Made by a program: the position numbers and the translations under genes. Shown in pieces: positions 23,768 through 43,810 of a stretch of DNA of 64,000 nt (positions are counted from its first letter, which is position 1; each line of letters opens with the position of its first letter). Source of the stretch: an uncultured bacterium. Lineage in GTDB: Bacteria > Krumholzibacteriota > Krumholzibacteriia > LZORAL124-64-63. The stretch covers positions 124,001 to 188,000 of the forward strand of contig CAIWHK010000009.1 in the NCBI GenBank assembly GCA_903912525.1, read 5' to 3'. The notes under the pieces are model-generated. The model did not search any database. It was not told the origin of the DNA and saw nothing but the letters and a program-made list of their open reading frames with translations.

Positions 23768-24634
23768 GTGACGAGCCAGGATCCATCAGCAGCAGCCCCG
23801 GATGACCTGTTCCCCGGACGGGTCTGCATCTATTCGCTCGTCGTGCCCCCGGGCTGCCGCGACCTCGCCCTCGGCAGGGCCACCGCTGCACAGGTGCTGT
23901 CCCCCGCCGAGTTGGAGCGGTTCGACCGCTACCAGGTGCAGCATCGGCGCAACGACCTGGTCCTGTCGCGCGTCATGCTCCGGTTGGTCCTCAGCCGGCT
24001 CGGGCTGGACGGCGCCGACGACTTCGAACTCACCGTCGACGCCAATGGCAAGCCCCACGCGGCGTCACGGACCGGAAGCCCGATCCTGTACCTCAACACC
24101 TCCGACACGGCCGGGATGATCACCTGGGCCTTCAGTCGCCAGGGTCCACTGGGTTGTGACGTGGAATGGATCGGCCAGGACAAGGATGCGATTGCCGACA
24201 GCCACTTCGCGCCGCCTGAGCTTGCCGGCTATCGGGCGCTCTCCGGAGTGAACCGGACGCGGCGTTTCTACGAGCTGTGGACCCTCAAGGAGGCCCTCCT
24301 CAAGGCCGACGGCAGGGGCCTCGGCATTCCCTTGGATTCGTTCAGCTTCCACCTGGCGGGCCCGGGCCCTGACCGGCCGCCCACCGTCGAGATCCTGGAT
24401 CCCCTGACAGGACCGGCCCCAGGCCCCTGGCGGTTCCATAGTTTTCGCCCCGGTGCCACCCACCAGGCGGCCGTGGCCGTCCGGGCGCCGGGTGAGGTGA
24501 CATTCCAAACCTGCCTGCTGCGCCCGAAAAGAATCTGTCCGACTTTCACCCCCCCGTGGGAGTTCGTGATCGCGCGCGATCACCCGTTCGCGAGCACCGA
24601 ACCGGAGACTGTCCTGTTCAGCCCCGAAAGGTGA
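23768..24634 (+). CDS. Sfp-type 4'-phosphopantetheinyl transferase
   Basis: 288 residues with the family motifs in order: GKPHAA-type motif 1 (NGKPHAASR), LGCDVEWIG with the Mg-binding Asp/Glu pair, and FYELWTLKEALLKADGRGL, the W-x-x-KEA-xxK-xxG-xGL motif. It transfers phosphopantetheine from CoA to carrier domains, here presumably the ACP and PCPs of the downstream megasynthases. The GTG start at 23768 has only a weak AGG upstream. It is the first intact gene after the left repeat and the only carrier-activating enzyme in the window. Confidence 0.95.
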   Translation: MTSQDPSAAAPDDLFPGRVCIYSLVVPPGCRDLALGRATAAQVLSPAELERFDRYQVQHRRNDLVLSRVMLRLVLSRLGLDGADDFELTVDANGKPHAASRTGSPILYLNTSDTAGMITWAFSRQGPLGCDVEWIGQDKDAIADSHFAPPELAGYRALSGVNRTRRFYELWTLKEALLKADGRGLGIPLDSFSFHLAGPGPDRPPTVEILDPLTGPAPGPWRFHSFRPGATHQAAVAVRAPGEVTFQTCLLRPKRICPTFTPPWEFVIARDHPFASTEPETVLFSPER

Positions 24635-24833
24635 CGAGGGGCGCGATGGAATCGCTCCATTTTGTGGTTTGCCCAACTGGACGCGCGGGTTCACTATCCC
24701 ACGGGGACTCCGCTGCCACGATTCCATTCAAGCGGCCTTCCGGCGGCCCGATACCATGGCACGCAGCACTGCGCGGAGTTGTCCAGCCTGACCAATCCGT
24801 ACACGCACAGGACGCTTGCGAGGAGCATCCCTG

Positions 24834-25808
24834 TTGAACATCGCGAGCTTCTTGAACGAACTCCGAAACCAGGGCATTGAACTGCGCCCGGCGGGCGCGG
24901 ACCGCCTGGTGTGCGATGCGCCCAGAGGCCTGTTGACCGCTGAAATCCGCGCGACCATCCGAGCTCACAAGGCGGACATCCTGTCCTTCCTCAAGCCCGT
25001 CGACAACGACGACTGGTCGCCCCTGGTCGCCATCCAGGCCCAGGGCAGCCGACCGCCGTTCTTCTGCGTCCATGGCGTCGGCGGCAACGTCCTGAACTAC
25101 TCCGTCTTCACCGCGTACCTCGGCCCCGACCAGCCCATCTACGGCCTGCAATCCATCGGCCTGGACGGGCTCACGCCTCCCTTGACGGATGTCGTGGCCA
25201 TGGCTTCGCAATACGTCAGGCAAGTCAGGACCGTCCGACCCAGGGGTCCCTACTATCTGGGCGGAGGCTCGATGGGCGGCGTGGTCGCCTTTGAAATGGC
25301 GCGGCAACTGAAAGCCGAAGGTGAAGAGATCGGCCTGCTCGTCCTTCTGGACACCATCGGTTCGAACATCGTCCGCAACGGCAGGATGCCGGCCGAGAAG
25401 GCGCTCGGCTGGCGGGGCCGGTTGGCGCGCATGCGCCACGGAAATCCCTGGTCCGTGGTCAAGGCGAAGGTCATCCACATCTGGAACAGGTCCCGCCGGT
25501 TCCGGGCCTGCCGCGATTGCCTGCGCAACAACCGGCCGATCCCCGTCGAAGACCGGTTCTGGTTCATCGAACAGTCGAACTACACGGCCATGTACAGCTA
25601 CGTGCACGAGAAATATGACGGGGAGATCGTGCTGATCAGGGGCGACCTGACCGAGGACGGCACCTGCCTTTCCGACCCCCTGCGCGGCTGGACGGGGCTG
25701 GCGAACGAGATCCGGGTCTGCCCGATTGTCGGTGAACACGAGACGCTGATCGAACAGCCCGAGCTCGGTGAAGTCCTGGCGAAGTGCCTCCGCGAAGCCA
25801 CGCGCTAG
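24834..25808 (+). CDS. Discrete thioesterase with N-terminal TubC-type docking domain
   Basis: 324 residues in two parts. Residues about 1-55 (SFLNELRNQGIELRPAG, APRGLLTAEIRATIRAHK, ADILSFLK) match the TubC_N beta-hairpin docking domain that normally begins NRPS proteins and receives an upstream partner. The rest is an alpha/beta-hydrolase thioesterase: HGVGGN oxyanion region, GGGSMGGV nucleophile elbow (Ser near 145), LLDTI, and the His in VGEHETL (near 302). I chose TTG 24834 because GAGGAG lies 8 nt before it; an in-frame TTG at 24816 would place that site inside the gene. A thioesterase with its own docking domain suggests it binds the last NRPS protein in trans and releases the product. 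Type II editing is the alternative. Confidence 0.88.
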   Translation: MNIASFLNELRNQGIELRPAGADRLVCDAPRGLLTAEIRATIRAHKADILSFLKPVDNDDWSPLVAIQAQGSRPPFFCVHGVGGNVLNYSVFTAYLGPDQPIYGLQSIGLDGLTPPLTDVVAMASQYVRQVRTVRPRGPYYLGGGSMGGVVAFEMARQLKAEGEEIGLLVLLDTIGSNIVRNGRMPAEKALGWRGRLARMRHGNPWSVVKAKVIHIWNRSRRFRACRDCLRNNRPIPVEDRFWFIEQSNYTAMYSYVHEKYDGEIVLIRGDLTEDGTCLSDPLRGWTGLANEIRVCPIVGEHETLIEQPELGEVLAKCLREATR

Positions 25809-25849
25809 CCGGAGCAATCTGTACTACCACCCGGGGAACGCGAAGGCCG

Positions 25850-26752
25850 ATGTCGTCAACCGACCTCACCATCTCGCCGTTGGATGCGGGCGCTTTTACC
25901 GCCGACCGCATCTGCCGGACGCGGCACGACTGCCACATGCATCCCCTGTTCGAGCTTGCGGCCCTGAACGAGTTGGCGCGCAACCTGGCCAGGGTCGACA
26001 AGTGCCGCTTCGTCCGTCCGGGCACGACACAAGCCTCGGAGTTCTCGACCGCCGGTGAAAGCCCCGATGGCCGCGACATCGACGATGTCTTTGCGCGCAT
26101 GGAAGAGCCGGGCTCCTGGATCGCCCTCTACAACATCGAGAACGATCCGACCTATCGGCGCTTCCTCCAGGAGCTCACCGGCAATGTCCGCGCCCTGGTC
26201 GAGCCCAGCCAGCCGGGCGTGTTCAACGTGCAGGGGTTCATCTTCATCTCGGCGCCGCCCTCGGTGACGCCGTTCCACATCGACCGCGAGAACAATTTCT
26301 GGCTGCAGGTCCGCGGCCGGAAGGTGATCACCCTGTGGGACCACGAGGACCGCCTGGCCGTGCCGCAGGTCGGCGTGGAGGAATTCATCGTCGAGCACAA
26401 CCTGCGGCACGTGCGTCTGGACGACGCCGTCGCCGCCCGCGGCACCTGCTACGACGTCGGCCCCGGGGACGGCCTCTATTTCCCCAGCACCACGCCCCAC
26501 ATGACCCGCTCGGAAAGGACCTGGTGCACCCCCGGGGACGGCATTTCCATTTCCATCGGCGTGGTCTTCTACACGGAAACGACCCGGCGCCATGCCAGGA
26601 TCCACGCCTGCAACGCGTTGCTGCGGCGCGCGGGGCTCGCTCCCCGGCACCCCGGCCACTCACGCCTGGACGGTGCCAAGGCCGCCCTGGGCCTGGCTGC
26701 CGTCGTCGTAAAGAAGCGATTCCGCGGTTGGGACTCGCCCCATGGGTTTTGA
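25850..26752 (+). CDS. JmjC/cupin-like Fe(II)/2-oxoglutarate oxygenase
   Basis: 300 residues. The double-stranded beta-helix carries an HxD metal motif (TPFHIDREN, near residue 142) followed by FWLQVRGRKVITLWD, and a distal His (TTPHMTRSE, near 214). This is the pattern of cupin_8/JmjC hydroxylases. In a peptide cluster it would most simply hydroxylate an amino-acid side chain, either free or PCP-bound. The ATG at 25850 has GAAGG just upstream; the frame is open further back, overlapping the thioesterase gene. The C-terminal 60 residues are basic and outside the core fold. Substrate unknown. Confidence 0.8.
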   Translation: MSSTDLTISPLDAGAFTADRICRTRHDCHMHPLFELAALNELARNLARVDKCRFVRPGTTQASEFSTAGESPDGRDIDDVFARMEEPGSWIALYNIENDPTYRRFLQELTGNVRALVEPSQPGVFNVQGFIFISAPPSVTPFHIDRENNFWLQVRGRKVITLWDHEDRLAVPQVGVEEFIVEHNLRHVRLDDAVAARGTCYDVGPGDGLYFPSTTPHMTRSERTWCTPGDGISISIGVVFYTETTRRHARIHACNALLRRAGLAPRHPGHSRLDGAKAALGLAAVVVKKRFRGWDSPHGF

Positions 26753-26775
26753 TATAAAGCTATATTTTTCAATTG

Positions 26776-26858
26776 ATTAGCCCACTGACGAGAAGAGGCG
26801 TCAATCTGTCGGGCATGGCAGGCGCATGGGGTCCCCGGCCGCCACAATGTGGGCTAAT
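26776..26858. promoter_or_regulatory. Long-range inverted repeat in the oxygenase-PKS gap
   Basis: ATTAGCCCAC (26776-26785) and its exact complement GTGGGCTAAT (26849-26858) are 63 bp apart, between the oxygenase gene and the PKS promoter. It could fold in the oxygenase transcript as a terminator or attenuator, or bind a regulator. No T-tract follows. Confidence 0.35.
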
Positions 26859-26899
26859 TTTCGTCCGCGAAACGCCGATAATCCGGGCCGGTACTGTCA

Positions 26900-26957
26900 T
26901 TGGCCAAACTGCGTCCGCTGCTATACATGAGTAGGTGGCACCGTGCATTTATATGCA
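26900..26957 (+). promoter_or_regulatory. Putative promoter and operator of the PKS-NRPS operon
   Basis: TTGGCC (26900-26905) and TATACA (26922-26927) are separated by 16 bp. A perfect inverted repeat TGCAT-TTAT-ATGCA (26944-26957) lies just after the expected start point, where a repressor could act. The PKS start codon is about 75 bp further on. Confidence 0.4.
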
Positions 26958-27001
26958 GTTATGGTGGCCGTGCGGACCGCCCACGGTGAAGGAGCATCCC
27001 A

Positions 27002-30000
27002 GTGCAATCCGACAAGCTCGCTGGCCATCAAGCTCAGGGCGACGGACCGGACGACACGGGGGCCGTGGCCATCATCGGGATGGCCGGACGGTTTCCCGGT
27101 GCGCGGAACCTGACCGAGTTCTGGGACAACCTCCGCGCGGGTCGCGAGTCCATCACGTACTTCACGCCTGGGCAGCTGGCGCGGGCGCTCGACCCGTCGC
27201 TCGTGGCGCATCCGGATTACGTTCCGGCCCACGGCATCCTCCTGGACGTCGACCTGTTCGACGCGGCGTTCTTCGGCATCACGCCCCTCGAAGCGCAGGT
27301 GATGGACCCGCAGCAGCGGATCTTCCTCGAGCTCGGTTGGGAAGCGCTGGAAAATGCCGGCTACGATCCCGCCGTCTTCACTGGTCGCATCGGCACCTTC
27401 GCGGGCATGAACAACCACGCCTACTATCTGGAAAACGTGCTGCGCAGGCCGGACCTCGTGCAGAAGGTCGGCGCGTTCCAGGCCATGCTGGCGAACGAGA
27501 AGGATTTCCTCGCCACGCGCCTTTCCTACAAGCTGGGCCTGACCGGCCCCAGCGAGAACATCTACACGGCGTGTTCCACGTCGCTGGTCACCATCGTGCG
27601 CGGCGTGCAGAGCCTGCTCGGCTTCGAGTGCGACATGGCCCTGGCCGGTGGAATCTCGGTGCAGGTCCCGCAGAATGCCGGCTACCTCTACCAGGAAGGA
27701 AGCATGCTGTCGCCCGACGGCCACTGCCGTCCTTTCGACGCGGCCGGCCAGGGGACGACCTTCAACGATGGCGCCGGCATCGTCGTGTTGCGGCGTCTCG
27801 AGGACGCGCTGGCCGATGGCGACCGCATCATCGCCTTGATCCGCGGGACGGGCCTCAACAACGACGGGGCCGGCAAGGTCAGTTTCACCGCACCGAGCGT
27901 GCAGGGCCAGGCCGACGCGGTCCGGATGGCGATCGCCATGGCGGGCATCGACCCGGCCTCGATTTCGTTCGTCGAGACGCACGGGACCGGGACGCCGCTC
28001 GGCGATCCCATCGAGGTGGCGGCGCTGGGCCTGGCCTTCGACCTGCCGGCCGGCCGGAAGACGTGCATCCTGGGTTCGGTCAAGAGCAACATCGGCCACA
28101 CGGTCCACGCAGCCGGCGTAGCCGGGGTCATCAAGACGGCGCTGTCGCTCGCGCACCGGCAGATCCCGCCGACGCTCTTTTTCGAGAAGCCGAACCCCAA
28201 GATCGATTTCGACCAGAACCCGTTCCACGTGAACAACCGGCTGATCGACTGGCCCGCGGGCGACACGCCGCGCCGGGCAGGAGTCAGCTCCTTCGGCGTG
28301 GGCGGCACGAACGCCCATGTCGTGATGGAGGAAGCGGCGAAGCAGGGTGTGGGCAGTTCGGGTCGCCGGTACCACCTCATGCCCCTGTCGGCGCGCACGG
28401 AAGCGGCGCTCGACATTGCGGCCACCAACCTGGCAGGCCATCTGGAGAACAACGGCGCGGGCGGCCTCGCCGACGCCGCGGCCACGCTGCAGACCGGGCG
28501 TCGTCATTTCAACCACCGCTGCTTCGGCGTGTTCGGCGATGCGGCGACGGCGGCGGCGGCGCTGCGCGAGAACAAGCCGCGGACGATCATCCGCGCGCAG
28601 GTGTCGACCCGCGACCCCGGCATCGTGTTCATGTTTCCCGGCCAGGGTTCGCAGCACGCGGGCATGGGCCGCGGCCTCTACGAAACCGAGCCGGTGTACC
28701 GCCAGGTGGTGGACGAGGGCGCCGAGCGGCTGATCCCGGAACTCGGGCTGGACCTGCGCGAGCTGCTGCACCCGGCGCCTGGAGATCAGGAGCGCGCCGA
28801 CACGGCCCTCAAGGAGACGCGCCTGACGCAGCCGGCGCTGTTCCTCGTCGAGTACGCCCTGGGCCGGTTGTGGCAGAGCGTCGGCGTCGAACCGGCGGCC
28901 ATGATCGGGCACAGCATCGGCGAGTTCGCGGCCGCCTGCCTGAGCGGCGTGTTCTCGTTCCCCGATGCGCTGCGACTGGTGGCCGCGCGCGGCCGGTTGA
29001 TGCAGGGCATGCCGCCCGGGGACATGCTGAGCGTCCGCCTGGACGCCGACTCGCTGGTCGCCCGGCTGCCGCAGGGCGTCGAACTGGCGGCCGACAACGC
29101 GCCCCAGCTGTGCGTCGTCGCCGGCGAGGCCGCGGCGATCGCGGACTTCGCCGCGCAACTGACCGCCGACGGCGTCCTGTGCAAGCTCGTGCGGACCTCG
29201 CACGCGTTCCACTCCGTCATGATGGAACCGGTCGTGGCGGCCTTCGCCGACCTCGTCCGGTCCGTGGCGCTGTCCGCGCCGAAGATCCCCTTCGTCTCCT
29301 GCGCCAGCGGCGACTGGGTCACCGCCGCTCAGGCCGTGGACCCGCAGTACTGGAGTCGCCACCTGCGTGAGCCGGTGCTCTTCCGCCGGGGCCTGGCGCG
29401 CCTCCTGTCCGACGCGGACAAGGTCTTCCTCGAAGTCGGCCCCGGCACGGCGGCCGTCACGCTGGCGCGGCAGCAGCTGACCGGCAAGGACACGCGCCGG
29501 GCGATCCCCACGTTGTGCGCGCCGGGCGAGGCCGCCGACGACGACCAGGCGCGGCTGACCGCCGTGGGCCAGCTCTGGCTGGCCGGCAAGGACATCGCGT
29601 GGGGCGCCCTGTATTCCGGCGAGAGGCGCGCCCGGACGGCGCTGCCGACGTATCCGTTCGAGCGCAAGCGATTCTGGGCCGATGTCGACGACACGGCGTT
29701 CCCGTCTCTCGAAGCCGTGGGCCCGACCCGGCCCGCCATGGATGTTCCTGAAGCCGTTGCGCAGCAGGATTGCGTCAGGGAGGAAACGAACAACATGCAA
29801 TCGTTGTTGGACATGGTCATCGCGAAGCTCAAGGCCATCCTCGAGGAGACCAGCGGCATCGAACTGGCGGACGCCGACCAGGATGCCACCTTCATGGAGC
29901 TCGGTTTCGACTCCCTGTTCCTCACGCAAGCGGCCATCGCCATCAGCAACGAGTTCAAGGTGCCGCTGGCTTTCCGGCAGCTCATCGAGGACTTCCCGAC

Positions 30001-31915
30001 CGTGGCGACCCTCGGGGAGCACCTGGCCGGCATCGTCAACCCGGCCGACTTCCAGGCGGCGGCCCAGGCTTCGGCTCCCACCGGCGGTGGCGGTGCGGCG
30101 CCGGCGTTGCAGGTGGGATTCTCCGCCTTCACCCATGCCGGCGGCGGCTCGCCCGTGACGGCGAACGGTGTGGACCTGCAGGCCCTCATCAACCAGCAAC
30201 TGGACATCATGGCCCGGCAACTGGCGCTGGTCAGCGGCGGACAGGCGCCGGCCGGCGCGGCGATGCCCGTCCCGCGCGCGCCGGTGGCGGCACCGACGGC
30301 AGCGTCGACGGCCGCTCCCGCGGCAACGCCCGAGGAGACGGACAAGCCTGCCAAGCCCTTCGGGGCGCAGGCACGCATCATCACGCACAGGTCCGAGGAG
30401 CTCACCGCGCACCAGCAGGCGGCGCTGAAGAAACTCTTCGACACCTACATTGCCCGCACCCGGGCGTCGAAAGCGTTCACGGCCGAGAACCGGGACCTTG
30501 TGGCCGATCCCCGCGTGGTCTCGGGCTTCCGGCCCCTGTTCAAGGAAGTCGTCTACCCGATCGTCGTGAACCGGTCCAAGGGTGCCTACATGTGGGACCT
30601 CGACGGCAACCGGTACGTCGACATGCTGAACGGCTTCGGCTCGAACTTCTTCGGCTACTCGCCCGACTTCATCAACGAAGCGGTGTCCGAGCAGTTGAGG
30701 AACGGCATCGAGATCGGGCCGCAGCACCCATTGGTGGCCGACGTGTCGGCCCTCATGCGCGAGTTCACCGGGCTCGACCGCTTCGGCTATTGCAACACCG
30801 GTTCGGAAGCGGTGCTGGGCTGCGTGCGCATGGCCCGGACCGTCACCGGGCGCAAGCTCGTGGCGACGTTCACCGGCGACTACCACGGCATCTTCGACGA
30901 GGTAATCGTGCGGGGCACGCCGTCGCTGCGGTCCCTGCCCGCCGCGCCCGGGATCATGGCCAGCGCCGTGGCCAACATCCTGGTGCTGGACTACGACTCG
31001 CCGGAATCGCTGCGGATCCTGAAGGAACGGTCCGGTGAACTGGCCGCCATCCTGGTCGAACCGGTCCAAAGCCGGCACCCCGACCTGCAACCCGGCGAGT
31101 TCCTGAAAAAATTGCGCGCGCTCGCGACCGAGTGCGGCGCGGCCCTCATCATCGATGAGGTCATCACCGGCTTCCGCATCCACCCGGGAGGGGCCCAGGC
31201 GTACTTCGGCGTGGAGGCCGACATCGCCAGCTACGGCAAGGTCGCCGGCGGCGGGTACCCGATCGGCATCGTCGGCGGGAAGAAGCGGTTCATGGACGCC
31301 CTCGACGGCGGCTCCTGGCAGTACGGCGACGAGTCGTTCCCGGAGATCGGCGTGACGTACTTCGCCGGCACTTTCGTCCGGCATCCGCTGGCCCTCGCGG
31401 CGTCGAAGGCCGCCCTGACCTACCTCAAGCAGGCGGGTCCCGAGCTGCAGAAGCAGGTCAACCTGAAGGCCGAGAAGTTCGCCCGCGCGTTGAACGCGCT
31501 GTTCCGCGAGAACGGGACGCCGTTCCACTGCCAGCAGTTCGGTTCGCTCATGAAGCTCGACCAGACCGAGGAGCACCCGTTCCACGAGCTGTTCTACTAC
31601 CACCTGCGCGCGCGCGGCGTTCACATCTGGTTCGGGTTCCCGATCTTCCTGACGATGGCCCACACCGACGCCGACCTTGAGTTCGTGCTGCAGGCCTTCC
31701 GCGACAGCGTCGCCGACATGCAGGCCGGCGGCTTCTTCCCCGCGGGCGGCAGCGCGCCCGTGGTCGCTCCCGAAGTGGAAACCACCGTGGCCAGCGCCCC
31801 GCCCGTGGCCGGGGCCCGCCTGGGCCGCACGCCCGAGGGCGACCCGGCCTGGTTCGTGGAAGACCCCGAACGCCCGGGCAAGTACGTCCAGATCGGGGCC
31901 GACCAGCATGACTGA
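27002..31915 (+). CDS. PKS-aminotransferase hybrid (KS-AT-ACP-AMT)
   Basis: 1637 residues. KS (about 20-440) has active Cys in YTACSTSL (near 190), HGTGTPLGDP and VKSNIGHT. AT (about 540-840) has FPGQGSQ, GHSIGE and HAFH, the pattern of malonyl-CoA-specific domains. ACP (about 935-1010) has GFDSLF. After a Gly/Ala/Pro linker comes a class-III PLP aminotransferase (about 1150-1590) with the Lys in SYGKVAGGG (near 1410), followed by an NRPS-type tail (WFVEDPERPGKY). There is no loading domain, KR, DH or ER. As in mycosubtilin/iturin synthases, the AMT should convert the beta-keto intermediate into a beta-amino acyl chain. The GTG start has AAGGAG 7 nt upstream. The stop overlaps the NRPS start (ATGACTGA). 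Confidence 0.95.
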   Translation: MQSDKLAGHQAQGDGPDDTGAVAIIGMAGRFPGARNLTEFWDNLRAGRESITYFTPGQLARALDPSLVAHPDYVPAHGILLDVDLFDAAFFGITPLEAQVMDPQQRIFLELGWEALENAGYDPAVFTGRIGTFAGMNNHAYYLENVLRRPDLVQKVGAFQAMLANEKDFLATRLSYKLGLTGPSENIYTACSTSLVTIVRGVQSLLGFECDMALAGGISVQVPQNAGYLYQEGSMLSPDGHCRPFDAAGQGTTFNDGAGIVVLRRLEDALADGDRIIALIRGTGLNNDGAGKVSFTAPSVQGQADAVRMAIAMAGIDPASISFVETHGTGTPLGDPIEVAALGLAFDLPAGRKTCILGSVKSNIGHTVHAAGVAGVIKTALSLAHRQIPPTLFFEKPNPKIDFDQNPFHVNNRLIDWPAGDTPRRAGVSSFGVGGTNAHVVMEEAAKQGVGSSGRRYHLMPLSARTEAALDIAATNLAGHLENNGAGGLADAAATLQTGRRHFNHRCFGVFGDAATAAAALRENKPRTIIRAQVSTRDPGIVFMFPGQGSQHAGMGRGLYETEPVYRQVVDEGAERLIPELGLDLRELLHPAPGDQERADTALKETRLTQPALFLVEYALGRLWQSVGVEPAAMIGHSIGEFAAACLSGVFSFPDALRLVAARGRLMQGMPPGDMLSVRLDADSLVARLPQGVELAADNAPQLCVVAGEAAAIADFAAQLTADGVLCKLVRTSHAFHSVMMEPVVAAFADLVRSVALSAPKIPFVSCASGDWVTAAQAVDPQYWSRHLREPVLFRRGLARLLSDADKVFLEVGPGTAAVTLARQQLTGKDTRRAIPTLCAPGEAADDDQARLTAVGQLWLAGKDIAWGALYSGERRARTALPTYPFERKRFWADVDDTAFPSLEAVGPTRPAMDVPEAVAQQDCVREETNNMQSLLDMVIAKLKAILEETSGIELADADQDATFMELGFDSLFLTQAAIAISNEFKVPLAFRQLIEDFPTVATLGEHLAGIVNPADFQAAAQASAPTGGGGAAPALQVGFSAFTHAGGGSPVTANGVDLQALINQQLDIMARQLALVSGGQAPAGAAMPVPRAPVAAPTAASTAAPAATPEETDKPAKPFGAQARIITHRSEELTAHQQAALKKLFDTYIARTRASKAFTAENRDLVADPRVVSGFRPLFKEVVYPIVVNRSKGAYMWDLDGNRYVDMLNGFGSNFFGYSPDFINEAVSEQLRNGIEIGPQHPLVADVSALMREFTGLDRFGYCNTGSEAVLGCVRMARTVTGRKLVATFTGDYHGIFDEVIVRGTPSLRSLPAAPGIMASAVANILVLDYDSPESLRILKERSGELAAILVEPVQSRHPDLQPGEFLKKLRALATECGAALIIDEVITGFRIHPGGAQAYFGVEADIASYGKVAGGGYPIGIVGGKKRFMDALDGGSWQYGDESFPEIGVTYFAGTFVRHPLALAASKAALTYLKQAGPELQKQVNLKAEKFARALNALFRENGTPFHCQQFGSLMKLDQTEEHPFHELFYYHLRARGVHIWFGFPIFLTMAHTDADLEFVLQAFRDSVADMQAGGFFPAGGSAPVVAPEVETTVASAPPVAGARLGRTPEGDPAWFVEDPERPGKYVQIGADQHD

Positions 31916-34900
31916 GCGGGACCGGGTGAACCACCTTCAGGTCGAGATGGTCGATTTCGATCCCTTTGCCGGAGGCGACCTCGACCGCATCGTGCCGACG
32001 ACCGGTCCCCAGCAGGAGATCTGGACCTCGGTCCAGCTGGGCGCTGACGGCAACTGCGCCTTCAACGAGTCGGTCGCGGTCACGTTGCGGGGCGCACTCG
32101 ACCAGGATGCGCTGGCCCTCGCCTTCAATGATGTCGTGGCCCGGCACGAGGCCCTGCGGGCGACGTGCACCACCGACGGCAAGTCGCTTTGCATCGTGCG
32201 CTCGCTGAACGTGATGCTGCCGCTGCTGGATCTCTCGGCCGAAGGGCGCGAGGCGGCGGCGCACCGTTATGCTGACATCCTCGAGGGCGCCTCCACGACG
32301 CCGTTCGATCTCGAGCATGGGCCGCTGATCCGGGCGACGTTGGTGCGCCTGGCCGCGGACCACCACGTCCTGGTGATGACCGGCCACCACATCGTGTGTG
32401 ACGGCTGGTCCACCGGCGTCATCCTCGAGGATATGGGCAAGTGCTACACGGCCCGGAAGCGCAACATCGCCGCAGGGCTGCGCCCGGCCGACGCGTTCAG
32501 CGACTACGCGCTCGCCATGGCCGAGCGAAGCCGGGACGGGCAGGACGCGAAGGACGCCGCCTACTGGCTGGGCGTCTTCGGCACGCCGCCTGAACCGCTC
32601 GAACTGCCCGCCGATCGCCAGCGCCCCGCGCTGCGGACATTCGCCGCCGATCGATACGACTACGCGCTGGATGCCCCGCTGGTGGCTTCGCTCAAGAAGC
32701 TGGCCGGCAAGAGCGGCGTCACGTTCCTGTCGATCATGGTCTCGGGCCTGGGTTCCTTCCTCAGCCGGATCTCCGGCCAGCGCGACCTCGTGATCGGCGT
32801 GCCGGCCGCCGGCCAGTTCTCGAGCGGCAAGCACGGCCTGGTCGGTCACTGCGTGAGCCTGATGCCGATCCGGCTCAGGATCGACCCGGAACTCGATGTC
32901 ACGGGCACCCTCAAGGCCCAGCGACCGGTGCTGCTGGATGCCTTCGAGCACCAGGTCTTCACCTACGGCAGCCTGCTGCAGCAGCTGCCGCTGGCGCGCG
33001 ATCCCAGCCGGCCGCCGCTGGTGGCCGTCGTCTTCAATATCGACACGGGCATCGGCGCGCTGGGCTTCGACGGCCTCGAGGCCACGGTGACGACGCCGCC
33101 CCGCCGGTTCGAGAATTTCGAGCTCTTCATCAACGCCACCGACAACGGTGGCCGCCTCGAGCTGGAGTGCACGTACAACACCGACCTGTTCAGCCGTGAG
33201 TGGATGGAGCGCCAGCTGGCCGCGTTCACGGTGATGCTCGAGGACATGTGCCGGCAGCCCGAGGCGAAGCTGGCGAGCCTGTCCGTCCTGCCGCAGGACC
33301 AGGTCGCTGCGCTGGCGGCCATCAACGACACGGCACGCGCCTGCGCGCCGGCCCGCGGCGTCGCCGGCCTGTTCGAGGACCAGGCGCGTCTTTCACCGGG
33401 GGCCGTGGCCGTCCAGTACGGTGCCGATTCGCTGACCTACGGCGAGCTGAACCGGCGCGCCAATCGCCTGGCCCGGCGCCTCGCCGAGGCCGGGGTGGGA
33501 CCGGACAGCCTCGTGGGAATCCACCTCGCGCGCGGCCTTGACCTGCCGACGGGCCTGCTGGCGGTCATGAAGACCGGCGCGGCCTATGTGCCGCTGGACC
33601 CCGAGTTTCCCGCCGCGCGGCTCGAGTACATGGTCGCCGATGCGCGCCTGGCGCTGGTCCTGACCACGACGGCGCTGGCCGGCTCGCTGCCCGGGCAGGC
33701 CGCGCAGATCATCGTCGATGCGCCGGCCGCGGACGACGGCGCGGACGTCGCCGATCCCACGGCGCCCATCGATCCCGATGCCGTGGTGTACATCATCTAC
33801 ACGTCGGGCTCGACCGGGCAACCCAAGGGCGTCCAGGTGACGCACCAGGGCCTGGCCAATTTCCTGCTCAGCATGCGCGAGCAGCCCGGGCTCACGGCCG
33901 GCGACACGCTCCTGGCCGTGACGACGCTGTCGTTCGACATCGCGACGCTGGAACTCTACCTGCCGCTCATCACCGGGGCGAAGGTCGTCATCGCCGACCG
34001 CGAGACCGCTGCCGACGGTCAGCAACTGATGTCCCTTCTGGATAGTTGCGGAGCCACGGTCATGCAGGCCACGCCGGCCACCTGGCACATGCTGGTGGCT
34101 GCCGGATGGAACGGCAATGGCCGCCTGAAGGTCCTGTGCGGCGGTGAGGCGCTGCCGCGTTCGCTCGCGGACGACCTGCTGGCGCGCGCCGGCGAGGTGT
34201 GGAACATGTACGGGCCCACCGAAACGACGGTGTGGTCCACCTGCGCGCGGATCACCGGGGGGCAGGGCGAGATCACCATCGGTGCGCCCATCGCCAACAC
34301 GACGGTCCACGTGCTCGACGAGAACCGGCAACCGGTGCCCCTCGGGGTACCCGGCGAGCTCTACATCGGCGGCATGGGCCTGGCCCGCGGCTACCTGAAC
34401 CGCCCGGACCTGACGGAGCGCCAGTTCGTGCTGGTGCCTGACGCCGCCGGCGGGACGCGGCGGCTCTACCGGACCGGCGACCGCGTGCGCATCGGCGTCG
34501 ACCGCCGGCTCACGTATCTCAACCGGCTCGACAACCAGGTCAAGGTGCGCGGTTTCCGCATCGAGCTGGGCGAGATCGAGACGGCCCTGGCTTCGCACCC
34601 GGACGTGGGCAACTGCGTGGTCATCGCCCGCGCCGGCGACGGCGGCGACACGCGGCTCATCGCCTACATCGTACCGCAGGCCGCCGGGACGTTCGACGTC
34701 AAGGCCCTCCGCGCGCACCTGCGCGGCACCCTGCCGGAATACATGGTGCCGCAGCACTTCGTGAAGATGACGGGCCTGCCGCTGACGCCGGCCGGCAAGG
34801 TCGACCGGCGCGCGCTGCCCGACCCCGACGGGGGCGATGCCGACGCGGGCGCCGGCGAGTACATCGCGCCGGCCACCGACAATGAGATCGCCATCGCCGC

Positions 34901-37900
34901 TATCTGGGCCAAGGCCCTCGGCCGCGAGCGGATCGGCACGATCGACAACTTCTTCGACCTGGGCGGCCATTCCCTGCTGGCGACGCAGATCCTGGCCCAG
35001 GTGAAGAAGAAGCTCGGCCTCGTCGTGTCGCTGCGGCAGTTCTTCGAGCATCCCACGGTCGCCGGCCTGGCCGGGCTGGCAACGCCGCGCGCCGAACGCG
35101 CTCCCGAGGGGATCGCAATCCCGCGGCGCGGTGACCAGGCCTCGGCCCGGCTGTCGCTGCAGCAGCAGCGCCTGTGGTACATCGAGGAACTCGAGCCCGG
35201 CTCGACGGTCTACAACCTGCCGGCCGCCTTCCGCCTGCACGGCGCACTGGACCGTGCCCGCTTCCAGGCGAGCCTCGACACGATCTTCGCGCGACATGAG
35301 GCCCTGCGCACCGCGATCGTCAACGGCGATCAAGGAGCGCGCCAGTGGATGACGCCGGACCTGCGCTTCACGCTGCCGGTCGTCGACTTGTCCGGGCTCG
35401 GGAAGGACGAACGCGAGGAGCGGCTCGCGAGGTCCATGGAAGCGGAGACCGGGACGTGCCAGAAGCTTTCCAGCCCGACGCTGTTCCGCGCCACCCTGTT
35501 CATCTTGGGCCCCGACGAGCACGTGTTCTTCTTCATGCCCCATCACGCCGTGTGGGACGGCTGGTCGTTCGATATCTTCCTGCGCGACCTGCGGGAGACC
35601 TACGAGGCCCTGGGGACCGGCGCGCGGCCGAACCTGCCCGAGCTTCCGGTGCAATACGCCGACTACGCCGAGTGGCAGCGTGACTGGGCGCAGTCCGGAG
35701 GCCTGGCCGCGCAGATCGACTACTGGAAGGACAAGCTGAAGGGCACGCTGCCGGTCCTGCACCTTCCGGCGGACCGGCCCCGACCCCCGGTGATGGTCTA
35801 TAACCACGCCGGCAGCGAGGAGGTCTTCCTGCCGCGTGAACTGGTCGACAAGCTGACCGAGGTGGCCCGTCGGCAGGACGCCACGCTGTTCATGATTCTG
35901 CTGGCCGCCTACAACGTCCTGCTGCACAAGTATGCCGGCGACCAGCGCGACATCCTCGTGGGCATCCCCATTTCGGGCCGCAACCACGCCGAGACCGCGG
36001 ACCTGATCGGCTTCTTCGTGAACACGCTGGTGATCCGCACGAACGTCGAACCGGACCTCCCGTTCGGCGATCTCCTGCGGCAGACGCGCGAAAACTGCCT
36101 GGAGGCCTACAACCACCAGGACGCACCCTTCGAGCGACTGATCGAAGTCCTGAACCCGGTCCGCGACCGGAGCCGGTCTTCGGTCTTCCAGGTGATGTTC
36201 GCCTACCAGGATGTGCGCAATCGCATCCCCAGGATGGCCGACCTGCGCCTGGAGCAGATCAACGTCGCCCGCGCGGGAGTCCAGACCGACATCGATTTCT
36301 GGGTCCGGTTGTCCGACGCGGGCCTGGCCGGCGGCTTCGAGTACAACGCCGACCTGTTCACGCCCCAGACGATCCGGCGGATGCTCGGGCACTACCTGCA
36401 GATCCTGGAGGGGATCGTGGCCGACGTCGCGAGCCCGGTCCGGGACGTCAGTGTGCTCACCGCGGACGACCGCGCCCTGCTGTCGGGAACGTGGAGCGCG
36501 TCCCGGGTGACCGTAGGCACGGCGCCGTCGCTGCACGCCATGGTGGAGAGGCAGGTCGCCGCTTCGCCGTCGGCCATCGCCCTGCGCTGCGGCGGCCAGG
36601 TCTTCACGTACCGGGAACTGGACCGACGCGCGAACGTCCTGGCGAACCACTTCCGGCAACACGGCGCCGGGCCGGGCACGCTGGTGGGCATCCACCTCGA
36701 GCGCACCGGCGATATGTTCGCTGCCGTGCTGGCCGTGCTCAAGACGGGCGCGGCGTACGTGCCCATGGATCCCGACTACCCGGCGGAGCGGCTCGCGATG
36801 ATGGTCCAGGATGCGGCCCCCTGCCTGGTGGTCACCGAGCGGGCCCTGGCCGCCGTGTTCCCCGCGGCCGGCGCCCCGCTGCTGTGCCTGGACGACCTGG
36901 CCCGCGAGCGCGACGACGCCTCGCCCCCGGGCGTTGCGACGTCTCCCGAGGACCCGGCGTACGTCATCTTCACCTCGGGTTCCACCGGTCGCCCCAAGGG
37001 CGTGCAGGTTCCGCATCGCGCCGTCACGAATTTCCTGCTGAGCATGCAGCAGGAACCGGGGCTCACCGCCGGCGACGTGCTGCTGGCCGTGACGACGCTG
37101 TCTTTCGACATCTCGGTGCTGGAGATCTTCCTGCCACTGGTCACCGGGGCGACCGTCGTCGCCGCGGATCGGGAGACCATCGCCGATGCCGGCAGGCTCG
37201 CCGCGCTGATCCGCAACTGCGGGGCCACCGTCATGCAGGCCACGCCGACGACCTGGCGGATGCTGCTGGCGGCGGGCTGGTCGGGTTCACCGACCCTGAA
37301 GATCCTCTGCGGCGGCGAGGCGTTCCCCCGGGACCTGGCCGCCAACCTCGTGGACAAATGCGCTTCCCTGTGGAACATGTACGGCCCCACGGAAACGACC
37401 GTCTGGTCGACGTGCGCGCAGGTGACCGACACGAGCCGCGCACCCCTGATCGGGCGCCCGATCGCAGGCACGACGGTCCATGTGGTGGACGAGGACCTGG
37501 AACTGGTGCCGCCGGGCGTGGCGGGTGAACTGCTCATCGGTGGCACCGGCGTGACGCTGGGATACCTGGGACAACCGGAGCTGACGCGGGAACGCTTCCT
37601 GCCGGATCGGTTCGCGCCGCGAAACGGCGAAAGCGAGCCTGGCCTGCTTTACCGCACCGGCGACCTCGTCCGCTTCCAGGCCGACGGCAGCCTGGAATAC
37701 CTGTCGCGCACCGACGACCAGGTGAAGGTGCGTGGATTCCGGATCGAGCTCGGCGAGATCGAGGCGACCCTGTCGCAGCATTCACATGTGGGACGGGCGG
37801 TCGTGACTTGCTACGAGGCGCGACCCGGCGACACACGCCTGGTGGCATACATCCTGCCGAAGGGAAGACCCGGCCCGGCGGCCGCGGAACTGCGCGAGCA

Positions 37901-38339
37901 CCTCCGCGCCACGCTGCCCGAGTACATGGTGCCCCAGCATTTCGTCGAGATCGGGGAGATCCCGCTGACGCCCGCCGGCAAGATCGACCGGCGACGCCTG
38001 CCGCCGCCCGAACTGAACGCCTCACGCATACAGGGTCAATTCCAGACGCCGGGGACCGAAACCGAAAGGCTACTGCACGGGATCTGGAGCCGGATCCTCC
38101 AGTCGGACGCCATCGACATCAACGACAGCTTCTTCGACATCGGTGGTCACTCCCTGCTGGCGGTGGAGGCGTTCAGTGGCATCAGGGCCGCCTTCGGCAT
38201 CGAGTTGCCGCTGGCAACGCTTTTCGATGCGCCGACCATCCACACGCTGGGACGACGCATCGACGCCGCGGTCTACGCCGCCGGCTCGCCCGGCAGCGTC
38301 CGCCAGGGAGACGACGACCGGGAAGAGGTGATCTTCTGA
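31908..38339 (+). CDS. Two-module NRPS (C-A-PCP-C-A-PCP) with acidic C-terminal docking tail
   Basis: 2143 residues. C1 has HHIVCDG (near 160), A1 YTSGSTGQPKG (near 628), PCP1 GGHSLL (near 1019), C2 HHAVWDG (near 1211), A2 FTSGSTGRPKG (near 1685) and PCP2 GGHSLL (near 2078). Both C domains keep the HHxxxDG catalytic motif. Lining up with GrsA-Phe, both A domains give the same ten-residue code DILQCGMVWK, closest to the known glycine code DILQLGLIWK. No epimerase, methyltransferase, reductase or thioesterase is present. The protein ends in GDDDREEVIF, a short acidic tail like those that bind TubC-type docking domains, and such a domain is fused to the thioesterase at 24834. The ATG at 31908 overlaps the PKS stop, so the proteins are made together. 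Confidence 0.95.
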   Translation: MTERDRVNHLQVEMVDFDPFAGGDLDRIVPTTGPQQEIWTSVQLGADGNCAFNESVAVTLRGALDQDALALAFNDVVARHEALRATCTTDGKSLCIVRSLNVMLPLLDLSAEGREAAAHRYADILEGASTTPFDLEHGPLIRATLVRLAADHHVLVMTGHHIVCDGWSTGVILEDMGKCYTARKRNIAAGLRPADAFSDYALAMAERSRDGQDAKDAAYWLGVFGTPPEPLELPADRQRPALRTFAADRYDYALDAPLVASLKKLAGKSGVTFLSIMVSGLGSFLSRISGQRDLVIGVPAAGQFSSGKHGLVGHCVSLMPIRLRIDPELDVTGTLKAQRPVLLDAFEHQVFTYGSLLQQLPLARDPSRPPLVAVVFNIDTGIGALGFDGLEATVTTPPRRFENFELFINATDNGGRLELECTYNTDLFSREWMERQLAAFTVMLEDMCRQPEAKLASLSVLPQDQVAALAAINDTARACAPARGVAGLFEDQARLSPGAVAVQYGADSLTYGELNRRANRLARRLAEAGVGPDSLVGIHLARGLDLPTGLLAVMKTGAAYVPLDPEFPAARLEYMVADARLALVLTTTALAGSLPGQAAQIIVDAPAADDGADVADPTAPIDPDAVVYIIYTSGSTGQPKGVQVTHQGLANFLLSMREQPGLTAGDTLLAVTTLSFDIATLELYLPLITGAKVVIADRETAADGQQLMSLLDSCGATVMQATPATWHMLVAAGWNGNGRLKVLCGGEALPRSLADDLLARAGEVWNMYGPTETTVWSTCARITGGQGEITIGAPIANTTVHVLDENRQPVPLGVPGELYIGGMGLARGYLNRPDLTERQFVLVPDAAGGTRRLYRTGDRVRIGVDRRLTYLNRLDNQVKVRGFRIELGEIETALASHPDVGNCVVIARAGDGGDTRLIAYIVPQAAGTFDVKALRAHLRGTLPEYMVPQHFVKMTGLPLTPAGKVDRRALPDPDGGDADAGAGEYIAPATDNEIAIAAIWAKALGRERIGTIDNFFDLGGHSLLATQILAQVKKKLGLVVSLRQFFEHPTVAGLAGLATPRAERAPEGIAIPRRGDQASARLSLQQQRLWYIEELEPGSTVYNLPAAFRLHGALDRARFQASLDTIFARHEALRTAIVNGDQGARQWMTPDLRFTLPVVDLSGLGKDEREERLARSMEAETGTCQKLSSPTLFRATLFILGPDEHVFFFMPHHAVWDGWSFDIFLRDLRETYEALGTGARPNLPELPVQYADYAEWQRDWAQSGGLAAQIDYWKDKLKGTLPVLHLPADRPRPPVMVYNHAGSEEVFLPRELVDKLTEVARRQDATLFMILLAAYNVLLHKYAGDQRDILVGIPISGRNHAETADLIGFFVNTLVIRTNVEPDLPFGDLLRQTRENCLEAYNHQDAPFERLIEVLNPVRDRSRSSVFQVMFAYQDVRNRIPRMADLRLEQINVARAGVQTDIDFWVRLSDAGLAGGFEYNADLFTPQTIRRMLGHYLQILEGIVADVASPVRDVSVLTADDRALLSGTWSASRVTVGTAPSLHAMVERQVAASPSAIALRCGGQVFTYRELDRRANVLANHFRQHGAGPGTLVGIHLERTGDMFAAVLAVLKTGAAYVPMDPDYPAERLAMMVQDAAPCLVVTERALAAVFPAAGAPLLCLDDLARERDDASPPGVATSPEDPAYVIFTSGSTGRPKGVQVPHRAVTNFLLSMQQEPGLTAGDVLLAVTTLSFDISVLEIFLPLVTGATVVAADRETIADAGRLAALIRNCGATVMQATPTTWRMLLAAGWSGSPTLKILCGGEAFPRDLAANLVDKCASLWNMYGPTETTVWSTCAQVTDTSRAPLIGRPIAGTTVHVVDEDLELVPPGVAGELLIGGTGVTLGYLGQPELTRERFLPDRFAPRNGESEPGLLYRTGDLVRFQADGSLEYLSRTDDQVKVRGFRIELGEIEATLSQHSHVGRAVVTCYEARPGDTRLVAYILPKGRPGPAAAELREHLRATLPEYMVPQHFVEIGEIPLTPAGKIDRRRLPPPELNASRIQGQFQTPGTETERLLHGIWSRILQSDAIDINDSFFDIGGHSLLAVEAFSGIRAAFGIELPLATLFDAPTIHTLGRRIDAAVYAAGSPGSVRQGDDDREEVIF

Positions 38340-38350
38340 ACGGGGTACCG

Positions 38351-39895
38351 GTGCCGCGGCGTGCCGGGAGCCTGGTGCCCGGGGTGCTGGTCGGCATCTG
38401 GCTCATCAGCCAGGTCCTCTGGGCCTTCCCGAAGGAAATCGCCGACGACTGGATGGGGTGGCGCCAGGCTGACACCCAGACCATCGCGCGCAACTTCCTC
38501 GCGCCCGGCGCGAACATCCTGTACCCCCGGGTCAACTGGGGCGGCGACGGGCCCGGCTACGTCGAGACGGAATTCCAGCTGTACACGTGGCTGACGGCCG
38601 GCGTGATGCGCGTCGTGGGATTGTCCGAACTCCCGGGATTGCTCCTGTCGCTGCTCGCGATGGCCGGCGCCGGGCTCGTGCTGCGCCGCATGCTTGCCAC
38701 GCGTTTCGGCGCGGGACCGGCGTTGTTCGGCCTGGCGGTCTTCCTGGGGCTGCGGGGCCCGGTCTTCCTGTCGTCGACGGTCCAGCCCGACGCACTGTGC
38801 TTCCTGTTCTATTGCGTGTCGATCGCCGCGCTGCTGGCCTGGATCGAGCGGCCGGCCGCAAAGTCGCTTGTGCTCATGGCCGTCGCCACGACCCTGGCCG
38901 CCCTGGTCAAGGCCACTTCGCTGCACGTCGGCATCTTTCAGTTCCTGGCGGTCCTGCTGGTCGCCCCGCGGCTCCTGCGACGCCCGGGACTGTGGCTGGC
39001 CTGGGTCGGGATCCTGGCCGTCGTGGGCCTCTACATGGTCCACGCGCACCGGTTCTTCATGGATTACGGCAACACGTTCGGGATCATCGCCGGCGGCGAC
39101 AGCAAGTTCGCCACCGTGAAAACGCTGCTGGATCCGGGCAACTACCCGTCACTGGTGCGGCTCTCGGTCGTCTGGGGCTTCGGTGCGCTGGGTGCCGCCG
39201 CCGCGGTGTATCTGGCGGTGGCGCGGCGGCTCGACCGCGTGGTGATCGCTGCGGGCCTCGCGAACTTCGTGTACCTGCTGGTGGCGTTCCGGTACACCCG
39301 CAGCGAATGGAACGGACCCCACTACCATCTCTTCACGGCGGCCCTCGGGACGTGGCTCGCCACCGCGGCGTTTGCGCTCCTGCAGGGCCGCCTGCCGGGA
39401 CAAGGACGCGCCCGGATCTGGGTGCCCGTGGCCTGCAGCGTCCTTTGCGCGACGATGTACGGCGCCCAGTTGGCGCGGCGCCACGCGCCGAACCTGGTCC
39501 TCTGGGAGAAGAACCCGGCCGTGGCCATGGGCAAAGCCCTGCGGACCCTCGCCGCCCCGGGCTCGCTGGTGGTGGTCCGGAGTTCGGCCGACGCGCGCGA
39601 CCGCGCGTTCGGCACCGTGAACAACTTCGAGGACCCCCGCGTGTTCTACCTGGCCGATGTCCACGGTTGGGTGCTCCCGGCCGACGAGGCGCGGCTGGAC
39701 GTCATCCAGCTGGCCGCCGACCGCGGCGCCGCTTTCTACGTCGATCCGTACCGCAGGCACGACGGCGGGGAACTGGACCGGTGGCTCGCGGACCATGCCG
39801 ACATCGCCATCGATCGCGGGGAACTGGGGCGGATCTTCCGCCTTCGGCACCCCGGCGCGCCGGGCGCCGCACCCCTCACTGAACCAGGCGGTTGA
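38351..39895 (+). CDS. ArnT/GT39-like polytopic membrane glycosyltransferase
   Basis: About 514 residues. A first membrane helix (LVPGVLVGIWLISQVLW) is followed by the loop WMGWRQADTQTIARNFL, where GT-C enzymes of the ArnT/PMT type carry their acidic sugar-phosphate-binding residues. Some ten further hydrophobic segments and a C-terminal periplasmic domain follow. Such enzymes transfer a sugar from a polyprenyl-phosphate carrier on the outer face of the inner membrane. The start is uncertain: I took GTG 38351, but CTG 38336 lies well spaced after GGAAGAGG inside the NRPS end. The gene lies 11 nt after the NRPS and 6 nt before the methyltransferase gene, so a role in modifying the product is likely but unproven. 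Confidence 0.75.
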   Translation: MPRRAGSLVPGVLVGIWLISQVLWAFPKEIADDWMGWRQADTQTIARNFLAPGANILYPRVNWGGDGPGYVETEFQLYTWLTAGVMRVVGLSELPGLLLSLLAMAGAGLVLRRMLATRFGAGPALFGLAVFLGLRGPVFLSSTVQPDALCFLFYCVSIAALLAWIERPAAKSLVLMAVATTLAALVKATSLHVGIFQFLAVLLVAPRLLRRPGLWLAWVGILAVVGLYMVHAHRFFMDYGNTFGIIAGGDSKFATVKTLLDPGNYPSLVRLSVVWGFGALGAAAAVYLAVARRLDRVVIAAGLANFVYLLVAFRYTRSEWNGPHYHLFTAALGTWLATAAFALLQGRLPGQGRARIWVPVACSVLCATMYGAQLARRHAPNLVLWEKNPAVAMGKALRTLAAPGSLVVVRSSADARDRAFGTVNNFEDPRVFYLADVHGWVLPADEARLDVIQLAADRGAAFYVDPYRRHDGGELDRWLADHADIAIDRGELGRIFRLRHPGAPGAAPLTEPGG

Positions 39896-39901
39896 CAGAC
39901 G

Positions 39902-40720
39902 ATGAGCCCGTATGTGCCCCACAAGGTCCTGTCGATGATCCGCAGCGCGCGGCGGGTTCCTGCGTTCGAGGCGTTCCTGCGCGCGCGCTACGAGCAGGAA
40001 TTCGCGACGACGCGCGACGCCAACCTCTTCCGCGGGATCTTCGGTTCCGCGGCGGAGGCGGCCGCGTCGGCGCCGACCGGTTGCACCGTCGGTTACGACC
40101 ATCCGGACCCGGCCAGCCTCTACCGCGAGCGCCTCGTGCAGGTGTATCCCACGGACTATCCCGTCCTGTACTGGCTGGCGAGGATCCTCGGTGAGGTCCG
40201 GACGGTGTTCGACCTTGGCGGCCACGTGGGCGTGGCGCGCTATGCCTACGAGCGCTACCTGGATTTCCCGGCGGACCTGCGCTGGCAGGTCTGCGACGTG
40301 CCGGCGGTGGTCGAGGCGGGCGCGAAGCTGGCCCTGGAGAAAGGCTGCCGCGGGTTGACGTTCACCGCCGACCGCGGCGCGGCCTCGGGAGCGGATCTCT
40401 ACCACGCGGCGGGAGTGCTGCAATATCTGGAAGAGCCGCTCGCGGACCTTCTGGCCGCGCTGGAGAAGAAGCCGCGCCACGTCCTGATCAACCTGTGCGC
40501 GTTCACCGATCGCGAGCCGTTCGTCACGCTTCAGAACATCGGCGCCGCCTATTGCCCGTACGTCATCCATCGCAAGGCGGACGTCTTCGGGGGCATGGAG
40601 AAGCTGGGCTACCGCCTGGTGGACGAATGGACGAATCCCGGCAAGTCCTGCACGCTGCCGCTGGACGACGAGCGCTCGCTGCCGCACTACACTGGCGCGT
40701 GCTTCGTGCGGGTCGATTGA
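39902..40720 (+). CDS. TIGR04325-type putative methyltransferase
   Basis: 272 residues. The pattern resembles the TIGR04325 (LIC12133-like) putative methyltransferases: an N-terminal helical part, then a SAM-binding motif I (VFDLGGHVGVARYAY), an acidic loop (CDVPAVVEAG), a motif-IV-like AAGVLQYLEEP, and LINLCAF. This family is usually found in surface-polysaccharide and secondary-metabolite loci, and its substrate is not established. It follows the glycosyltransferase gene by 6 nt and is the last plus-strand gene of the cluster. It converges on the A-PCP gene with only 7 bp between stops. Confidence 0.78.
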   Translation: MSPYVPHKVLSMIRSARRVPAFEAFLRARYEQEFATTRDANLFRGIFGSAAEAAASAPTGCTVGYDHPDPASLYRERLVQVYPTDYPVLYWLARILGEVRTVFDLGGHVGVARYAYERYLDFPADLRWQVCDVPAVVEAGAKLALEKGCRGLTFTADRGAASGADLYHAAGVLQYLEEPLADLLAALEKKPRHVLINLCAFTDREPFVTLQNIGAAYCPYVIHRKADVFGGMEKLGYRLVDEWTNPGKSCTLPLDDERSLPHYTGACFVRVD

Positions 40721-42620: not shown

Positions 42621-42746
42621 GTCGTCGCTCGCCTCCGGTTTCGTGGTCACCAATCCCGGGTACCCGACCCCTTCGGTACATGATCGGCAGGCACCGCCGG
42701 GGATTGACCCTGGAGTCGGTATTCAAGCCGAGACGGCGCCGATCCG

Positions 42747-43081: not shown

Positions 43082-43810
43082 GTCCTGCGCGATCCCGAGT
43101 CGCTCTGGCCGCGGCTGGGATACCTGCCGCAGGAATTCGGCTTCTACCCGCACCTGTCGGGCGAGGCGATGCTCGACCACCTGCTGGTGCTCAAGGGCGT
43201 CGAGGCGCCCGGCGGCCGCAAGGCACTGGTCAAGGAACTGCTCGAGCGCGTGAACCTCACCTTTGCCGCGAAGCGCGCCGTGAAGGGCTACTCGGGCGGC
43301 ATGCGGCAGCGCCTGGGCATCGCGCAGGCGATCGCCGGCGACCCGCGCCTGATCATCGTCGACGAGCCGACCGCCGGGCTCGACCCCGAGGAACGGCTCC
43401 GCTTCTACCACCTGCTGTCCGAGCTGGCGACCGACCGCATCGTGCTCTTGTCCACCCACATCGTCGAGGATGTCGCGGTCCTCTGCCCGCGCTTTGCCGT
43501 GATCCGGGGCGGGCGCCTGCTGGCGCTGACCACGCCGACCGAGGCCCGCGCGGCCATCGACGGCCACATCTTCGAGGGCACCGTCGACGTGGCGGACCTG
43601 CCGCGCCTGCGCGCCGAGCGCACCGTGACCCAGGCATTATTGGTCGAGGGCCGCAACCGCGCCCGCGTCTACGAGCCTGCCGGCGCGCCTCCGTCCGGGT
43701 TCACGCCGGCGCCGGTGACGCTTGAGGACGCCTACCTGGTGCTGATGCGCCTGGGTACGCTGCCGGGACACGAACTGCAGGCCCCGGCCGGCCAGGGAAG
43801 CGGGCTGTGA
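42890..43810 (+). CDS. ABC transporter ATP-binding protein
   Basis: 306 residues with Walker A GPNGAGKST, Q-loop LPQEFGFY, signature YSGGMRQR, Walker B LIIVDEPTAGLD and switch His (LLSTHIVED), then a C-terminal extension of about 90 residues. The GTG start has GGAGG 5 nt upstream. Its TGA overlaps the ATG of the permease/peptidase fusion, so the two form one transporter. Its first 64 codons are duplicated at the left end of the biosynthetic island. Confidence 0.96.
   Translation: MLSIQGLTKIYPGPVSALNGVDLEVPAGMFGLLGPNGAGKSTLMKILAGLLQPTTGTVTLDGMDVLRDPESLWPRLGYLPQEFGFYPHLSGEAMLDHLLVLKGVEAPGGRKALVKELLERVNLTFAAKRAVKGYSGGMRQRLGIAQAIAGDPRLIIVDEPTAGLDPEERLRFYHLLSELATDRIVLLSTHIVEDVAVLCPRFAVIRGGRLLALTTPTEARAAIDGHIFEGTVDVADLPRLRAERTVTQALLVEGRNRARVYEPAGAPPSGFTPAPVTLEDAYLVLMRLGTLPGHELQAPAGQGSGL

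Follow-up and report, generated by a model that had tools for sequence, protein, structure and literature searches.

The release step sets the shape of a product, linear or cyclic, and it is hard to engineer because most thioesterases (TEs) are built into their synthases; a natural TE that attached by way of a ten-residue tail would serve directly as an interchangeable part for release. According to the account given in a 2021 review, Kosol et al. (2019) surveyed more than 1400 pairs of a short linear motif (SLiM) and a beta-hairpin docking domain (betaHD) and found betaHDs in front of TE, MT and thioester reductase domains, the pairs at TE junctions being counted by bioinformatics (PMC9113145). 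On that account, the betaHD-TE architecture is already catalogued and a TubC_N domain before a TE has precedent. A literature search, with most subscription journals outside its coverage, returned no experimental or biochemical study of a betaHD-TE. For the Kj12 system, an NMR study names the contacts R24, Y27 and E28, and the short Kj12B/C peptide binds with a Kd of 15 uM (PMC6195595); in PcdC/PcdK, the betaHD is essential and the SLiM is dispensable in vivo (PMC13324335).

The window analysed here, a whole stretch of DNA of 64,000 nt, contains a free-standing TE that begins with a docking domain and an NRPS that lacks a TE. The best explanation, and quite probably the correct one, is that the betaHD-TE docks on the NRPS tail and thereby guides release in trans; the basis for this reading is the domain identities, the catalytic triad, the lack of a TE in cis, the class of the tail, the uniqueness of the partners in the genome, their conservation in a sister species and the recurrence of the architecture elsewhere. 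The features concerned are the following.

24834 to 25808, + strand: TubC_N-thioesterase, stand-alone, 324 aa (Pfam TubC_N and Thioesterase; AlphaFold mean pLDDT 84)
24840 to 24995, + strand: beta-hairpin docking domain (TubC_N), residues 3-54 (PF18563, AlphaFold model)
25041 to 25805, + strand: TE domain, type I-like, residues about 70-324 (PF00975, aligned triad)
31908 to 38339, + strand: NRPS C-A-T-C-A-T, 2143 aa, without TE (Pfam, motifs)
38307 to 38336, + strand: short linear motif GDDDREEVIF, predicted docking tail (tail profile score)

The TE gene starts at a TTG at 24834, with GAGGAG upstream, and stops at 25808; the mechanical open reading frame begins at 24816, and the TTG, which was also the start chosen in the sequence-only reading, was judged better. 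That reading had placed a TubC_N domain at the start of the thioesterase, and the assignment passed the HMM test: PF18563 covers residues 3-54 with 54.2 bits versus a cut-off of 26 (E 1.6e-14, Pfam), and the predicted fold agrees. In particular, AlphaFold2, given a 35-sequence alignment, predicts the elements H3-12, E16-19, E25-28, H36-44 and H46-53, residues 1-50 having block pLDDT values of 85-96, and this H E E H H order is the one described for the betaHD class (PMC9113145, PMC6195595); the N-terminus of the TE protein is predicted to have the expected betaHD fold. By sequence, its closest solved domains are EpoB, AerJ, Bamb_5915 (6cgo) and Kj12B. Strand beta2 carries R24, C27 and D28 (at 24903, 24912 and 24915), and the hairpin turn has one extra residue, as a result of which the docking register may differ.

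The Thioesterase family PF00975 covers residues 75-205 of the same protein with 81.3 bits in the Pfam search, and the catalytic triad is intact by alignment (S146 at 25269, D173 at 25350 and H302 at 25737). In both sequence and fold, this half matches the NRPS termination TEs NRPS4 7crn, AB3403, EntF and NocB, with NRPS4 7crn the best structural match of the TubC_N-thioesterase, and its nearest relatives are C-terminal TEs fused to NRPSs. Among 49 TE relatives found, one (L002) is free-standing and the others follow a carrier domain within a longer open reading frame. The window's enzyme is thus an alpha/beta-hydrolase TE with a Ser-Asp-His triad, closest to cis TEs, as type I NRPS TEs are; it is, however, a separate 324-aa protein and not a C-terminal fusion to the last PCP.

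The NRPS has two condensation, two AMP-binding and two PP-binding domains by Pfam, which finds no thioesterase domain in 31908-38339, and its PCP serines are residues 1022 and 2082; the earlier description of an NRPS without a thioesterase, ending in GDDDREEVIF, is confirmed by these domains and by the translated C-terminus. The ending QGDDDREEVIF belongs to the 61-residue stretch that follows the second PCP serine, and its DREEVIF, lying after PCP2, is an acidic C-terminal motif with a large hydrophobic end behind a carrier protein, as a SLiM tail should be. A profile of seven positions, trained on 61 tails just upstream of TubC_N proteins (the window and its sister were excluded, and a few clearly misassigned tails were kept), scores it at 12.8 bits, where the leave-one-out median of the training tails is 13.8. 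As a null, 242 predicted C-termini were taken from this genome, out of 20 stretches totalling about 0.38 Mb and the window; their mean is -11.4 and their maximum 4.8, none reaching 12.8, and 0.1% of shuffles of the last ten NRPS residues score as high as the real tail. Moreover, the tails upstream of TubC_N in our survey are strikingly alike (DREEIEL, YEEGEL, EREVFEL, EREEFVF and EREEFIF), and the NRPS tail is nearly identical to EREEFIF and EREEFVF, which come from pairs in the Pseudomonadota search. These comparisons support the assignment of the tail to the class that pairs with TubC_N.

The genome, 98% complete, was searched for possible partners of either protein. It yielded a single TubC_N match and a single above-cut-off TE, the two condensation domains that it found both lie in this NRPS, and no competing TubC_N or TE above cut-off was found elsewhere in the 4.29 Mb assembly; the enzyme that had been called the sole thioesterase of the cluster is the sole PF00975 match above cut-off assembly-wide. 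From these single-match counts, the genome's only docking domain found sits on its only such TE, and the single NRPS that has condensation domains is without a TE. Neither Pfam on the cluster nor the genome TE search found a termination reductase or a second TE for the NRPS. The genome is therefore a clean test case, with a single tail, docking domain and thioesterase and no competitors found.

TubC_N is rare in the phylum, occurring in 3 of 80 genomes, two of which carry this cluster and the sister's version of it. In the sister species, the whole cluster is present, with a TE that is 84% identical and retains the docking domain, and an NRPS that is 91% identical with an unchanged tail. The last ten NRPS codons differ between the sisters by a single silent change, too few changes for purifying selection on the tail to be shown, and the linker at about residues 55-69 of the TE protein differs at six codons with an amino-acid change and at two silently. 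The TE is missing from two further genomes of the genus, so the cluster is probably accessory.

Further, TubC_N proteins were surveyed at the phylum level in acidobacterium, cyanobacterium and Xenorhabdus searches, together with other genomes, and for each one the C-terminal residues encoded by the immediately preceding gene were read. The sequence-only reading had proposed a search for other TubC_N-thioesterase architectures, and three turned up, all confirmed by Pfam: L173 and L175 in the Acidobacteriota search and L179 in the Cyanobacteria search. Upstream of each lies a TE-less synthase whose last domain is a PCP or ACP, followed by such a tail (EREELEI, PQVEIEI and DFVEGEL); the window's TE gene, unlike these three, is not adjacent to its NRPS gene. 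In the TE-domain tree, the TubC_N-TEs occupy three positions, and their grouping as one clade is rejected (p-AU 0.009), with several long branches and small sampling leaving the number of origin events uncertain.

Other observations from the survey concern the enzymes themselves. The nucleophilic Ser is replaced by Cys in L173:2970-4097 (GGYCAGG) and L175:7717-8715 (GGFCVGG). Two proteins from the Cyanobacteria search, L177 and L178, join TubC_N to a thioester reductase-like domain (NAD_binding_4) and lie directly downstream of genes ending in EREELEI and EREEIEI, which looks like docked reductive release. TubC_N is also fused to a luciferase-like monooxygenase in L180:5404-6678 and to a methyltransferase in L181:5051-6424, which would make both docked tailoring enzymes.

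The survey also yielded 105 non-redundant adjacent tail/betaHD pairs (loci L065-L272), across which betaHD columns were scanned blind for covariation with tail positions. The top-ranked combination was 27/-2, followed by 24/-1, and 28/-3 and 28/-5 ranked high as well; these positions match the Kj12 NMR contacts, so the interface was recovered from sequence alone. The resulting rules pair Y or F at 27 with Gly at -2, Cys at 27 with an aliphatic residue at -2, and R or K at 24 with Glu at -1. Arg at -5 occurs in 36 of 49 pairs with D, E, N, S or T at 28 and in 0 of 35 with R or K there, an association (Fisher 5e-13) whose figure is inflated by related sequences; a rule joining an acid or small polar residue at 28 to Arg at -5 may usefully extend the published recognition rules. 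The window's pair has two of the four strongly co-varying contacts, C27 with V(-2) and D28 with R(-5), and misses two, as R24, found elsewhere mostly with Glu, faces I(-1) and D28 faces E(-3). Its affinity may therefore be modest, or its register different. The pair scores -2.1, compared with a mean of -3.4 for random pairings and a median of 2.4 for true pairs, and 36% of other tails score equally well with this docking domain; since the score failed to single out the window's pair, no specificity is claimed. The contact data support a fit to this class of interaction, not tight or exclusive binding. A broader scenario, possible although on balance doubtful, is that fused TEs repeatedly became docked free TEs by gaining a betaHD, and that this lineage uses a partly private code, with a hydrophobic residue at -1 facing R24, that keeps it apart from other SLiM-betaHD pairs.

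The NRPS and TE are accompanied in the cluster by the following genes, and an ABC transporter is also among the surroundings.

23768 to 24634, + strand: 4'-phosphopantetheinyl transferase (Pfam ACPS)
25784 to 26752, + strand: cupin/JmjC-like protein, possible tailoring hydroxylase (weak Pfam Cupin_8/JmjC_2, below cut-off)
27002 to 31915, + strand: PKS module KS-AT-ACP-aminotransferase, 1637 aa, upstream subunit (Pfam)
40728 to 42653, - strand: stand-alone A-T, probable loading module, basic tail (Pfam)

Directly after the NRPS stop lies a PMT_2 membrane glycosyltransferase-like (mannosyltransferase-like) gene (38340-39895), and 39902-40720 encodes a 272-aa protein with no Pfam match that is 94% identical in the sister cluster. 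A large protein at 43807-47406 combines ABC-2 membrane domains with a peptidase M1 domain, beside an ABC ATPase gene. Read by eye, the signature residues are DILQLGMVW(K) in both NRPS A domains, which we take to be glycine-like, and DAFWLGGTF(K) in the A-T, presumably valine-like. These tentative assignments suggest a product order of Val, one malonate unit with beta-amination, Gly and Gly.

In the proposed mechanism, for which we infer the physical binding, its need for release and the release chemistry, PCP2 would present the finished chain, with no release domain in cis. The NRPS tail, through its REEVIF core, would align along strand beta2 of the betaHD and extend its sheet by a third strand, and the short linker would let the tethered TE reach PCP2; Ser146 would then take the chain from PCP2, and release would follow by hydrolysis or cyclisation. 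The split NRPS/TE termination module put forward in the sequence-only reading agrees at the sequence level with the TubC_N assignment, the class of the tail, the lack of competitors found and the recurrence of the architecture.

A serious alternative inside the same trans-docking picture, though an unlikely one, is that the betaHD brings in the TE chiefly by holding the globular part of PCP2 while the acidic tail contributes little. The PcdC/PcdK precedent and the imperfect match between tail and beta2 speak for it; against it, the tail fits the SLiM class strongly and is kept in the sister, which a dispensable tail need not be. The same imperfect match, with two of four contact rules satisfied, could mean that the acidic C-terminus arose by chance and that the docking domain is a relic. 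However, such a coincidence is scarcely credible when no C-terminus in the null scores as high and the domain is intact by Pfam and predicted fold and retained in the sister.

The TE could also act in another role or on another protein. As a separate protein, it resembles type II TEs, and it might be an editing enzyme that clears misprimed carrier proteins, with docking providing proximity and the product exiting otherwise; this is quite improbable, as its nearest matches in sequence and structure are C-terminal type I NRPS TEs and the cluster and genome searches turned up neither a further TE nor a termination reductase for the NRPS. The PKS and the stand-alone A-T both have carrier domains and might be received by the docking domain in place of the NRPS, yet their tails score -23 and -16 on the docking-tail profile, the A-T tail is not a SLiM of the NRPS-tail class, and the PKS ends in an aminotransferase and not a carrier; docking to either tail is extremely unlikely and was dropped on these scores. 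Docking on the NRPS tail accordingly stays the preferred reading.

The C-terminal TEs of EntF, NRPS4 7crn and AB3403 have the same fold and triad as the window's TE, but they are fused in cis to a PCP, whereas this one is free and bears a docking domain instead. The Kj12B/Kj12C rhabdopeptide pair (6EWV) has the fold that is predicted for the window's betaHD, and the covariation at betaHD positions 24, 27 and 28 is as expected from its NMR structure; in contrast, that pair joins NRPS modules at a C domain, and not all of its salt bridges are reproduced here. In the enacyloxin system (Bamb_5917 PCP-SLiM and Bamb_5915 betaHD-C), a SLiM and a betaHD guide chain release in trans, as proposed here, with a condensation domain as the releasing enzyme where the window has a hydrolase-fold TE. 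The TE-junction pairs of Kosol et al. (2019), as the review presents them, have a betaHD at the TE N-terminus and a partner with a short C-terminal motif, as in the window. The docking system and the pairing type have thus already been described in outline, and the window is a good uncharacterised example of them, not a new principle.
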